IMG/VR virus record: IMGVR_UViG_3300020162_002681
Coordinates: 82,233-146,232 of that record
From: a virus
DNA: 64,000 bases
Direction: 5' to 3' (one strand)
Positions 43,974-50,479 of this stretch are shown here, piece by piece; position 1 is the first letter of the stretch, and every line of letters starts with the position of its first letter. The notes under the pieces are model-generated. The model made no database searches, had not been told where the DNA came from, and saw only the letters and a program-made list of their open reading frames with translations. The translations under genes were made by a program, and so were the position numbers.

Positions 43974-44490
43974 ACCAACAGCATAGAAAAACTATGCTGT
44001 CTTTTTCTGTTTGTAAACTATTGGTAGTCGAGAAAAAGCTAGCGGTATGTCAGGTGTTTGCTGCCTATACTTTCAAATTTGCATACTTATTGAAGTGCCT
44101 CAAACGTCGAGAAATCGTTGAATAACCATTGTTTTTGGTGCGCCTTATATTACTGCTTCTTCTTCTGGTAATCCAAACTTCTACTACTGCTAGGTATGTT
44201 TTAGCCATGCGGCGCTTGAGCCAGTACCTCAGTATCTTCCCTATTTAGCATATGAATCTACCCGTTTTGCCGTACTATCTATGTCATTTCACGATATGTA
44301 TGAAAGCCCGTCGGCGGTGAGACAATGCTGTGATGGCGCAAACTCGTTGGTATATGTGTAGATGATTGCAATTGCAACTATGTTGAGGCTGAAATGTAGA
44401 GTAGGTTGAAGCAAGTGGGGCAAACTATCATCTCTCGTTTAACTCTCGTATATACGAAGATAACATAGTTCTCCATTATCCCTCATATCG
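43974..44490. other. divergent intergenic control region without genes
   Basis: About 500 bases without a supportable gene separate the leftward late genes from the rightward early genes. It begins with the inverted repeat at 43978-44000 followed by CTTTTTC. No further strong repeat was found by eye; there are short G/C-rich islands (CCCGTCGGCGGTGAG near 44310) and GATTGCAATTGCAAC near 44365. It is a natural place for promoters, operators or a replication origin, none of which can be proven here. Confidence 0.6.
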
Positions 44491-44499
44491 TGCTATAAT
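44491..44499 (+). promoter_or_regulatory. extended -10 promoter for the rightward genes
   Basis: TGCTATAAT carries a perfect TATAAT at 44494-44499 with the TG of an extended -10 box. A transcript would begin near 44506 and have a 60-base leader ending with AAGGAG before the ATG at 44568. There is no clear -35 box, as usual for extended -10 promoters. It is the best candidate for the first early promoter. Confidence 0.6.
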
Positions 44500-44567
44500 C
44501 CTTACAGTGAAAGCGTTACAGCCTAATCACTACTCTCTCACACAAACATTACTAAGGAGAAATTAAA

Positions 44568-44981
44568 ATGTATTCAGTAAATATTCGTTCAATAAATAGC
44601 ATATTCAATTTGTTGCATAGCCTAAAAATCGCTCTCATGACTTGCGAGTTAGTAAATGCCCAAACATACCTAAAGACATTTTTAAGTAGCTTAGCGGTCA
44701 AACTGCATAATACAGAATTACATATATGCAATTGCAAGAAGTGCACATACAAAATCTTGAAACATGTACGCGCTATATATGTTAATACGAAATTTACGGG
44801 ACAAAAAAGAATTTTCAAACTTTTTTCTCTATACGCTGTAAGACTTTCAGGCACTTTTAAACGGGTACATACTGTAAGGGGGGTTTACATTCTACGCGAT
44901 AGGGTTTATATTGATTCACATGAGATACGAGATAAGCAAAGCCAAGCGGTTAAACGCAAAGTCAAGCTCTCTATCCTATAG
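44568..44981 (+). CDS. first early gene, small basic protein
   Basis: 137 residues after a strong ribosome binding site (ACTAAGGAG at 44549-44557). The product is very basic and rich in Lys, Arg, Ile and Cys, for example HICNCKKCTYKILKHVR, KRKVKLS. As the first gene behind a strong promoter it may be a host-takeover protein binding nucleic acid. The opposite-strand frame (44552-44854) is a shadow. No known family recognised. Confidence 0.65.
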   Translation: MYSVNIRSINSIFNLLHSLKIALMTCELVNAQTYLKTFLSSLAVKLHNTELHICNCKKCTYKILKHVRAIYVNTKFTGQKRIFKLFSLYAVRLSGTFKRVHTVRGVYILRDRVYIDSHEIRDKQSQAVKRKVKLSIL

Positions 44982-45439
44982 CTGACTTGGTTTCTAGCTA
45001 ACCTGAAAAAGATTTATTCAAAAAGGGTTGACATTCAAAAAGAAACCTACTAAGCTACTAAAGCGAACTAAAAAATCGCAAAACAACAAAAAAGAGCGCT
45101 TAACTCTTAAATATTAAGCGATTGAACCTTGAAAACTGAATATAGACTAGCGTTAAATCGCATCAAGTAATCAGTCTTGAGCGTCAAAACTTAGTACCTG
45201 TGTAAAAGATATCCTGTGATAAGGTTACGAGTGGAAAAGTACGGTTAGTCAGCTTATCTAGATAGCCTAGCAAACTACTAGAGACGCTTGCATTATTGCT
45301 TAGTGTGAGGCTGAAAAGCTTGTAACACTTATAAAGAGAAGGGTAGGCGTTATTCAACCGCTAAACCTTAAAAAGTTTTTTCGGAAAAATTTCGCTAAAC
45401 CTCTTAGTCGTGCTTACTGTGCTGTTAGGGACTAACGAT
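44982..45439 (+). other. long untranslated stretch with repeat and hairpins
   Basis: No gene is supportable here. TTGACA at about 45027 could be a weak -35 box. CGCTTAA (45097-45103) and TTAAGCG (45114-45120) form a hairpin. At 45312-45359 lies a 48-base element, similar to 46511-46558. A CTGTGCTG element lies at 45417-45424, just before the next start. A structured leader or small RNA is possible. Confidence 0.45.
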
Positions 45440-45682
45440 ATGTTAACTACCGAACAATACAAATTACTAGAAACATTATCTAGCGATGACATCAGACTAA
45501 TCAAGAGCGCTGTTACTTCTGACAACGTTCTAAACAAAACACGCTTTATTAAAATAGGCGATGCAATGAAAACCCATAAACTCATAGAGAGAGGGATTAT
45601 TGAGTCATACACAATAGACGGAAAATATAAAACAAGCGTTACAAAGGAATATTTTTCTTTGGCTTGCAGACTAGCATCATAA
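45440..45682 (+). CDS. hypothetical early protein
   Basis: 80 residues from ATG at 45440; a GTG 30 bases upstream is possible but lies within the CTGTGCTG element. A weak TTAGGGAC precedes the ATG. The protein is a mixed helical domain, MLTTEQYKLLETLSSDDIRLIK at its start and YKTSVTKEYFSLACRLAS at its end, suggestive of a small winged helix. Function unknown. Confidence 0.6.
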   Translation: MLTTEQYKLLETLSSDDIRLIKSAVTSDNVLNKTRFIKIGDAMKTHKLIERGIIESYTIDGKYKTSVTKEYFSLACRLAS

Positions 45683-45843
45683 AACACCAATTATCAACAG
45701 CACAGCAAACACGATTAAGAACTCTCTATAAGTCACACTGTAAGCGCTTAAAACATTCTGAGAATATAGCGCTATATAAAACACTGTTACTTCTTTCTGT
45801 ATTCCATACTGTGCTGTATAACTACACATAGGAGAATACCAAA
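45683..45843 (+). promoter_or_regulatory. structured leader with CAGCACAG / CTGTGCTG pair
   Basis: CAGCACAG at 45698-45705 can pair with CTGTGCTG at 45809-45816, closing a loop of about 100 bases, shortly before the ribosome binding site ATAGGAG. The part 45785-45820 is also nearly the reverse complement of 46070-46105 in the next leader. This suggests two alternative RNA structures. Confidence 0.5.
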
Positions 45844-46065
45844 ATGACTGATATACAAGCAATTGAAAGAAAGATTAAAAAGAAAGATGGACTACTAAAC
45901 AGTTTTTGTGACGACTTAAAACAAGAGCGTTTAGATGGTATCAATACTACATCTACAGAAAAGATTATCAATGAAATATCTGATGAGATTGAAATACTAG
46001 AAACAAACCTATATAATTTGATACAGTTTGAATCATCCGCTAATTCTAGCTTATCGTTTGTATAA
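45844..46065 (+). CDS. small coiled-coil protein
   Basis: 73 residues after a strong site (ATAGGAG, 45828-45834). The whole protein is predicted helical and charged (IERKIKKKDGLLNSFCDDLKQE, IINEISDEIEILETNLYNL), a coiled-coil hairpin in character. It is flanked by 36-base near-perfect inverted repeats, one in each leader. Function unknown; small early coiled-coil proteins often bind host proteins. Confidence 0.7.
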   Translation: MTDIQAIERKIKKKDGLLNSFCDDLKQERLDGINTTSTEKIINEISDEIEILETNLYNLIQFESSANSSLSFV

Positions 46066-46266
46066 ACACTTTACAGCACAGCATAGAGTATAGAAAGAAG
46101 TAACTAAGACAATGACACACTTAACTTAAAACAGTTAAGGTGAGCTATAGGCTACTAGCTGCAAGATTGCTAGGTTAAACTATCCTTGCTACTGTAACTT
46201 GGTTAAGTTAGTCTAGTCCTAACTGTGCTGTAAAGCTTATCACTTGAAAATATAGGAGATAAGACA
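46066..46266 (+). promoter_or_regulatory. structured leader with long inverted repeats
   Basis: CTTTACAGCACAG at 46069-46081 can pair with CTGTGCTGTAAAG at 46223-46235 (13 bp), closing about 140 bases. The same 5' segment (46070-46105) is also nearly complementary to 45785-45820, upstream of the previous gene. The two pairings exclude each other. The next ribosome binding site follows the second arm. Confidence 0.5.
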
Positions 46267-46464
46267 ATGTTAGAATCACTACAACTTTTCTACGGTTGGT
46301 TAGCAATAGCTATAACGTTAGAAATACATCATAATTCGTATATCTGCGAGTTACCTGATAATTTGCACTGTAAAGATATAGAATTTCATTGTATAGAACA
46401 AAACCTTAAATCGGATAGATGGTTAGCAGCAGCTAACGAATTACACAATAAGTTATTTAAGTAA
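46267..46464 (+). CDS. hypothetical early protein
   Basis: 65 residues after TATAGGAG. A hydrophobic start (FYGWLAIAITLEI) and a Cys/His-rich middle (YICELPDNLHCKDIEFHCIEQN) suggest a possible metal-binding mini-domain. It sits between two structured leaders. No recognised family. Confidence 0.6.
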   Translation: MLESLQLFYGWLAIAITLEIHHNSYICELPDNLHCKDIEFHCIEQNLKSDRWLAAANELHNKLFK

Positions 46465-46510
46465 ACATAGCTACGGTACAGCTAAGACTAGCACTGCTAG
46501 TTCGTATGAG

Positions 46511-46558
46511 TGAAAAGCTTGTAACATTATGGGAGAAGGGGTGTACCCTTATTCAACC
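46511..46558 (+). repeat. 48-base leader element, second copy
   Basis: The first 16 bases (TGAAAAGCTTGTAACA) and the last 10 (TTATTCAACC) are identical to 45312-45359, and the middle is similar. Both copies are 48 bases long. A third, weaker relative is at about 50476-50512. The core GGGTGTACCC can form a hairpin. Just before the next gene, CTTGGTT and AACCAAG form another hairpin at 46593-46608. Confidence 0.5.
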
Positions 46559-46619
46559 CTATCTCATAATTTCTAAAAATTCTATCCAATAATGGCTTGG
46601 TTTTAACCAAGATAGAAAA

Positions 46620-46910: not shown

Positions 46911-46922
46911 TTGATTTTTCCT

Positions 46923-46967
46923 AGCTGTATCGTATCGCATGGTACAGCTAAGAGCAATCAAGCTCTT
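46923..46967 (+). promoter_or_regulatory. tandem hairpin leader
   Basis: Two hairpins follow each other: AGCTGTA (46923-46929) with TACAGCT (46943-46949), and AAGAGC (46950-46955) with GCTCTT (46962-46967). The block TTGATTTTTCCTAGCTGT before it matches the leaders at 48.4 and 50.2 kb. The next gene starts at 47006. It could be a translational or transcriptional control element. Confidence 0.5.
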
Positions 46968-48391: not shown

Positions 48392-48441
48392 GGTAAAATT
48401 GTGAAAACTTGGGAATATACTAAACGCTCTTGACTATTCCT

Positions 48442-48485
48442 AGCTGTATAGTGTAAGCTTCTATACAGCTAAGAGTATTCACTCT
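48442..48485 (+). promoter_or_regulatory. tandem hairpin leader
   Basis: AGCTGTATAG (48442-48451) pairs perfectly with CTATACAGCT (48461-48470), followed by AGAGT (48472-48476) with ACTCT (48481-48485). The block TTGACTATTCCTAGCTGT before it is shared with the leaders at 46.9 and 50.2 kb. The next gene starts at 48519 after CGGAG. Confidence 0.55.
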
Positions 48486-50066: not shown

Positions 50067-50479
50067 CTATGGCTTACTGTGCTTGTAGGATGTGCAATGG
50101 CAATGGTTTGGTTACCTTGCCTAATAGACCCAACTTAGTTTGGAAAACATACAGATGTAGTCACTGCAACGCCACTGGTTGCGATGTAGAAGCTACAAAA
50201 AAACTTGACTTTTCCTATCTGTTCGTGAGAAGCTTACCCTTAACGAACAGACAAGAGCAGTCACGCTCTAACACAAACCATTCACACAATCGGAGTTATT
50301 ACATCATGTCTCAAAATTCACCTTCTCGCGAAGCATTTCTAAATCTTGAACACGCAAAGCTAACAGGCAATCTTCCTGATGTAGCTATCATCCGCAACAA
50401 TGCTCACCGCAAGTCTTGGGAACTGCGCGAAGCATCAACACTGAACACCGAAGCATCACATCCGCTAATCAAATCTTGA
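50063..50479 (+). CDS. zinc-finger protein, frame continues through a leader
   Basis: Open from ATG at 50063 to 50479 (138 residues). Residues 6-40 have two C-x2-C pairs (ACRMCNGNG and YRCSHCNATG), like a DnaJ-type zinc finger. After about residue 50 the frame runs through a tandem hairpin leader (50218-50269) into the start of a second gene at 50306. Thus the zinc-finger gene may really be short, or be fused in frame with the downstream gene. Neither stop nor start decides this from sequence. Confidence 0.55.
   Translation: MTMAYCACRMCNGNGLVTLPNRPNLVWKTYRCSHCNATGCDVEATKKLDFSYLFVRSLPLTNRQEQSRSNTNHSHNRSYYIMSQNSPSREAFLNLEHAKLTGNLPDVAIIRNNAHRKSWELREASTLNTEASHPLIKS
50218..50269 (+). promoter_or_regulatory. 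tandem hairpin leader inside the open frame
   Basis: TCTGTTCGT (50218-50226) pairs with ACGAACAGA (50243-50251), and AGAGC (50254-50258) with GCTCT (50265-50269). The block CTTGACTTTTCCTATCTGT before it matches the leaders at 46.9 and 48.4 kb. CGGAG follows before the ATG at 50306. Confidence 0.55.
50306..50479 (+). CDS. small hypothetical protein, second start in the zinc-finger frame
   Basis: 57 residues from ATG at 50306 after CGGAG, in the same frame as the zinc-finger gene. The product starts MSQNSPSREAFLNLEHAKLTG and is polar. The leader before it is of the same type as before other separate genes, so it is probably translated alone. Unknown function. Confidence 0.55.
   Translation: MSQNSPSREAFLNLEHAKLTGNLPDVAIIRNNAHRKSWELREASTLNTEASHPLIKS

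Follow-up and report, generated by a model that had tools for sequence, protein, structure and literature searches.

The question raised by this locus is whether the complementary sequences that lie on either side of small phage genes fold those genes into loops of the early transcript, and, if so, what such loops might be for. The window, the whole 64,000-nucleotide stretch analysed here, represents positions 82233-146232 of a 146,232-bp IMG/VR phage contig, the relatives of which are the phages Pam2 and PA-SR01 of the cyanobacterium Pseudanabaena as well as several other IMG/VR contigs (L054 to L063 where named below). It carries an array of small genes on the + strand, directly downstream of a conserved promoter-like box that is also found at the equivalent site upstream of the slots in L054, L055, L056, and L060. 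A first-pass annotation had proposed that one of these genes lies inside a giant stem-loop and that its arms take part in mutually exclusive pairings, resembling a riboregulatory switch or a long-range RNA fold.

Inverted repeats around three small genes

Three gene-enclosing sites, designated slots A, B, and C, were recognized in the window:

45028-45057, + strand: promoter-like box preceding the array of genes, TTGACA-N17/18-TAAGCTA
45402-45426, + strand: slot A 5′ arm, a 25-nt inverted repeat with 45696-45720
45440-45682, + strand: slot A open reading frame, 80 aa, no family match
45696-45720, + strand: slot A 3′ arm, pairing with 45402-45426
45786-45818, + strand: slot B 5′ arm (the first element of the first-pass annotation), pairing with 46072-46104
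45805-45808, + strand: 5′ side of a conserved double mismatch in which C45805 faces A46085 and A45808 faces C46082
45830-45834, + strand: putative slot B Shine-Dalgarno AGGAG, from the sequence and an accessibility model
45844-46065, + strand: slot B open reading frame, 73 aa, no family match
46072-46104, + strand: slot B 3′ arm, its core beginning 7 nt past the stop codon
46105-46212, + strand: stretch separating slots B and C, also a conserved RNA fold
46213-46232, + strand: slot C 5′ arm, nearly invariant in relatives
46267-46464, + strand: slot C open reading frame, 65 aa, with other gene families at this place in relatives
46472-46491, + strand: slot C 3′ arm ACGGTACAGCTAAGACTAG, pairing through two G-U

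The near-complementarity originally placed at 45785-45820 and 46070-46105 is present as the 33-nt slot B stem (29 Watson-Crick, two G-U, and two A-C), which with a score of 27 outranks every other inverted repeat within 1 kb across the whole 146-kb genome. The slot A stem, a gene-flanking pair absent from the first-pass annotation, scores 20.5 over 25 nt (22 Watson-Crick, one G-U, and two A-C). By comparison, the top stem among 40 copies of the full 146-kb genome generated with a first-order Markov model scored 20.0 (mean of maxima 15.7), and the next-best real stem in the rest of the genome reached only 15.5. Single-strand folding gave z = -6.3 for slot B (45780-46110) and z = -5.6 for slot A as a stand-alone fold. 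The slot C stem is weaker than the other two, with two G-U in place of Watson-Crick pairs, and the array of the window holds two strong stems and a weaker third. The short complementarities reported earlier are all exact, namely CTGTGCTGT at 45417 and 45809 and ACAGCACAG at 45697; these 8-nt cross-pairs are a by-product of a core common to all arms.

Partition-function folding of whole early stretches gave about 30 expected pairs of 33 for slot B in five genomes, with 26.4 in Pam2 and 26.8 in L056. For slot A of the window, 21.8 pairs are expected between the arms. Slot C has 8.0 expected pairs in the window and 11.6-17.1 in relatives, and its stem in the window fails to form in some of the truncated transcripts folded. 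A duplex of about 20 bp or longer in the slot transcript is thus predicted by folding, and is backed by the covariation described below.

The proteins encoded in slots A, B, and C of the window gave no match in Pfam or PHROGs, and searches of viral contigs with the slot proteins found no relatives, as expected for fast-swapping genes. With Rfam 15, nothing reached gathering score in the loci of seven relatives, and the window gave chance-level sub-threshold matches only.

A number of other features were observed nearby. Some 1.2 kb at 44200-45400, in which little coding sequence is evident, lies between divergent gene blocks and is partly conserved with PA-SR01 and Pam2. Shortly 3′ of the promoter-like box, amid otherwise variable noncoding DNA, sits the leader sequence ACCTTGAAAA(CT)TGAATA (45123-45140), which is conserved also in Pam2, L055, L056, L058, and L060. 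A second repeated intergenic element, AAAGCTTGTAACATTATGGGA..GGGTGTACCC..ATTCAACCC, recurs 3′ of small genes (45312-45371 and 46511-46570 in the window) and is present in L060, L056, L058, L063, and Pam2 (L001 6575-6620); it varies yet keeps a hairpin-like shape and is possibly another structured RNA. Directly 5′ of the slot B 5′ arm lies an AGCGCT...AGCGCT hairpin (45745-45780), the L056 counterpart of which is altered on both sides (ATCGC...GCGAT) in a manner that looks compensatory. A strong sigma-70-like site (TTGAAA-N17-TATAAT, 11/12 matches, + strand) is found within the slot B gene.

Gene exchange between conserved arms

The search for the same pattern in relatives, which the first-pass annotation had put forward as a check, found the architecture again in Pam2, PA-SR01, and the IMG/VR contigs, with arms that are still complementary. 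Slot B is filled in seven genomes by four unrelated genes: the gene of the window has unrelated replacements in Pam2 and L055, in L054, L056, and L063, and in L057. Ten genomes carry a gene in slot C (L062 has two such slots), and these genes fall into about seven families as grouped by BLASTP. The L062 contig (IMGVR_UViG_3300035190_001334) has tandem slot C units with different genes and identical arms, which suggests that slots multiply by duplication and exchange genes afterwards. Pattern queries consisting solely of the core of the 3′ arm, or of its flank, retrieved 8 and 22 extra contigs, which serve as negative controls; a matching stem was present in none of them. A search of cellular genomes returned a single match, likely due to chance.

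Although the enclosed genes are unrelated, their distances to the arms are close to constant. The core of the 3′ arm begins 7-11 nt past the stop codon, mostly 8 nt, in 17 of the 19 filled slots, the exceptions being slot A (14 nt) and L062_C1 (28 nt); in the latter an inner stem extension, AAATGAACG, begins nearer the stop as judged by eye. On the other side, the core of the 5′ arm ends 26-48 nt upstream of the start codon in 18/19 filled slots and 14 nt upstream in slot A. The L057_B spacings (26 and 9) were read by hand, the script having chosen a wrong start. In slot B the flanks differ in sequence while the distance is kept, and in slot C the constant spacing derives partly from shared ancestry of the right flank. 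These distances thus put the stem immediately beyond the stretches covered by a ribosome that terminates or initiates.

The reading we prefer, with a probability of roughly 45%, is a tandem array of gene-enclosing RNA domains in the early transcript, serving in processing, insulation, and end protection. In the + strand transcript, the arm 5′ of the ribosome-binding site of a gene would pair with the arm about 8 nt past its stop codon, leaving the gene as the loop, and each stem would make its own gene a separate domain within a polycistronic early mRNA. Genes are exchanged or dropped at these sites while compensatory mutations preserve the stem, and an empty slot collapses to a compact hairpin. 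The 20-33 bp duplex could be a target for RNase III-type enzymes of the host, comparable to pre-rRNA and T7 early mRNA; alternatively, it may shield the mRNA at both ends and keep the gene insulated from those next to it. As a consequence, a new gene arriving in a slot would be expressed correctly regardless of its sequence.

A related formulation, which we hold a little more tentatively, is that covarying long-range stems loop each interchangeable gene at distances matching a ribosome footprint, the outcome being either closed-loop translation or monocistronic RNA domains that are autonomous within a polycistronic early transcript. Closed-loop or insulated translation taken by itself, in which the stem joins the stop codon to the ribosome-binding site of the same gene so that ribosomes re-enter it and spare the neighbours, needs no nuclease. 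The spacings on both sides are as tight as ribosomes allow, and the inner extension in L062_C1 holds about the same distance even though the core there is 28 nt away. However, the constancy in slot C is in part the shared ancestry already mentioned, and a bacterial precedent of this kind was not found in a limited literature search; we consider this explanation on its own rather unlikely.

A further alternative is that the arms act at the level of DNA, as sites of recombination or gene exchange or as terminal inverted repeats, their identity being maintained by inverted-repeat correction with no role for RNA. It is in keeping with this that the swapped genes are flanked by arms, and palindromes are known deletion hot spots. 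Against it stand, in the first place, the empty sites. Slot C of both Pam2 and PA-SR01 has no gene and forms a compact hairpin, slot B of PA-SR01 has shrunk to a short symmetric hairpin (GTTATTTCTT..AAGAAGTAAC), and slot B of L059 to a short remnant. As the empty sites in Pam2, PA-SR01, and L059 retain the arms wholly or in part, the arms are a property of the site rather than of the gene inserted there, and are not the ends of an insert. Ordinary terminal-repeat transposition is excluded by the same observation.

The mismatches also speak against a purely DNA-level element. Two A-C mismatches occur at fixed positions in all 21 slot and empty-slot stems (C-NN-A in the 5′ arm opposite C-NN-A in the 3′ arm), the 5/5 stems of the counted slot B alignment included, and correction would erase them. 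One tentative possibility is that the C-A mismatch prevents a perfect Shine-Dalgarno from arising in the 3′ arm (TAAGA versus TAGGA). Fixed mismatches aside, the non-Watson-Crick events in cognate stems comprise 10 G-U against 3 A-C as read on the + strand, an excess pointing to probable selection on the + strand sense RNA. Together with the near-fixed spacing to stop codons, these features make an exclusively DNA-level role unlikely, and the arms could nonetheless be homogenised in part at the DNA level, as inverted repeats.

Covariation and choice of pairing partner

Covariation in relatives, the absence of which the first-pass annotation had named as evidence against a fold, is present. In the slot B alignment, 93.3% of cells are paired and 7/33 pairs have changed on both sides; the covariation score was reached by 0/500 shuffles, and all six slid registers of the alignment gave zero compensatory pairs. 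The counted alignment consists of five equal-length stems and excludes L055 and L056, in which MAFFT misplaced indels. In L055 the indel is matched on both arms (CTTATGT/ACATAAG), the L056 stem contains a bulge, and in L057 the outer arm of the stem is rewritten on both sides. The covarying set as a whole comprises seven sequences from about four independent lineages, with one core change common to three related genomes. The region between slots B and C has 27 consensus pairs, of which 6 are changed on both sides, its covariation term being weak overall in a gappy alignment.

The core change just mentioned is in L054, L056, and L063, where CTGTGCTGTA/TACAGCACAG is replaced by CTGCGATGTA/TACATCGCAG through two compensated pairs. 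The slot C 5′ arm of these genomes is still CTGTGCTGT, and cognate pairing can therefore be told apart from the alternative proposed earlier. In every genome having both slots with distinguishable arms, the cognate arms outmatch the non-cognate ones; in L062 the slot arms are identical and the comparison is impossible.

Slot B could also act as a translation switch in which the 5′ arm masks the Shine-Dalgarno until the 3′ arm, once transcribed, pulls the 5′ arm away. The AGGAG of slot B falls within sequence that is complementary to the 5′ arm (GTATTC/GAATAC), and Pam2 has a perfect 9-bp TATTCCTTA/TAAGGAATA. In 6/7 slot B genes the modelled accessibility is 0.01-0.32 without the 3′ arm versus 0.50-0.81 with it. 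However, the shuffle p-values range from 0.01 to 0.30 over homologues that are not independent, the 5′ arm is nearly invariant here and hence lends no covariation support, and TCCTA occurs in gene-less compact hairpins too. The effect is not seen in L057_B, nor in slot C with the one exception of L060, and a Shine-Dalgarno switch was rejected as a general mechanism. Even for slot B such a switch, as modelled, seems a decidedly unlikely account of the stem. Both closed-loop translation and a switch confined to slot B are compatible with the preferred reading of gene-enclosing domains and can act jointly with it.

Least probable is the riboregulatory switch of the first-pass annotation, in which the slot B 3′ arm alternates between its upstream arm and 46223-46235. 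The alternative pair 46069-46081/46223-46235 does exist in the window as a perfect 13-bp complementarity, with 16.8 expected pairs if the transcript starts 3′ of the slot B 5′ arm, and the promoter-like site at 45989-46017 in gene B makes such a truncation conceivable there. When the complete transcript of the window is folded, however, its expected pairs number 0.0. Folds lacking the upstream arm show it in the window and in Pam2 but not in the other five of the seven genomes, and its complement is destroyed in L054, L056, and L063. Conservation of two states is thus not found and mutually exclusive pairing is not supported, while the gene in a giant stem-loop stands by virtue of compensatory changes, cognate arms, and folding. 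On the basis of cognate pairing, covariation, gene turnover, empty states, and spacing, a real, conserved, and unusual gene-enclosing RNA architecture is well supported.

Compact hairpins and known systems

Hairpins with the slot signature (TTCCTA ... AAGAG, with the C-A mismatch) are also found between other small genes on the same strand of each genome, a scan matching 2-3 per genome, repeated in the gene-shuffling region. In the window these are:

46911-46961, + strand: compact intergenic hairpin of the slot-stem family, no gene inside
48431-48481, + strand: compact hairpin of the slot-stem family, with TTGACT...TAAGCT inside
50206-50263, + strand: compact hairpin of the slot-stem family

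Several of them contain TTGACW-N17-19-TAAGCTA, the box of the leader promoter, which is not clear in the slots. Counts of this promoter motif genome-wide are near chance and show no enrichment, and with respect to putative promoter activity the hairpins and their box are suggestive only. The arms of slot C are alignable by eye with the compact hairpins. The two kinds of element look homologous, and the slots look like promoter hairpins whose loop may have taken in a gene.

A known system reminiscent of this is that of the promoter early stem-loops (PeSLs) of T4-like phages (Arbiol 2010; Comeau 2014), described in PMC4503421 as repeated intergenic stem-loops combined with an early promoter and subject to intense gene shuffling. 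Here too intergenic stem-loops are repeated in a shuffling region, several compact hairpins carrying the TTGACW...TAAGCTA box. However, PeSLs are local structures between genes, whereas each loop of slots A-C contains an entire gene, across which the arms covary.

Pre-rRNA is a case in which a long-range duplex encloses a functional RNA, and in the early transcript of phage T7 intergenic duplexes are RNase III sites. The likeness lies in the long-range duplex or in the duplexes of an early phage transcript; the slots differ in enclosing protein-coding genes and in their two fixed A-C mismatches, and we infer a possible processing role, cleavage included, only by analogy. Cyanobacteria do possess RNase III-type enzymes (PMC10989914).

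Pairing between both ends of one bacterial mRNA is known from icaR of Staphylococcus aureus, where the 3′-UTR pairs with the Shine-Dalgarno of the 5′-UTR and blocks translation, the duplex being an RNase III substrate (PMC3868564). In contrast, the 3′ arm here pairs upstream of the Shine-Dalgarno, which in slot B is modelled as more accessible with the 3′ arm present. In the fold-back inhibition of hok of plasmid R1, as described in the same source, an interaction joins the 5′ end of a small-gene mRNA to its 3′ end; hok is a single toxin gene, whereas the slots are interchangeable and their predicted effect on the ribosome-binding site is the opposite. The paper on PA-SR01 gives seven predicted rho-independent terminators and does not mention inverted repeats, hairpins, or promoters, and neither inverted repeats nor stem-loops or hairpins are mentioned in a paper on five Pseudanabaena phages.

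Both Pam2 and PA-SR01 exist as isolates, PA-SR01 having been published with its host, and the idea is therefore directly testable. Early regions of phages hold many tiny, fast-swapping genes, which raises the question of how newcomers gain workable expression. In the arrangement proposed here it would be the site, and not the gene, that supplies the RNA architecture, unrelated genes entering a conserved stem, and the arms would single out the slot genes as candidates for screens of host-takeover or anti-defence activity.
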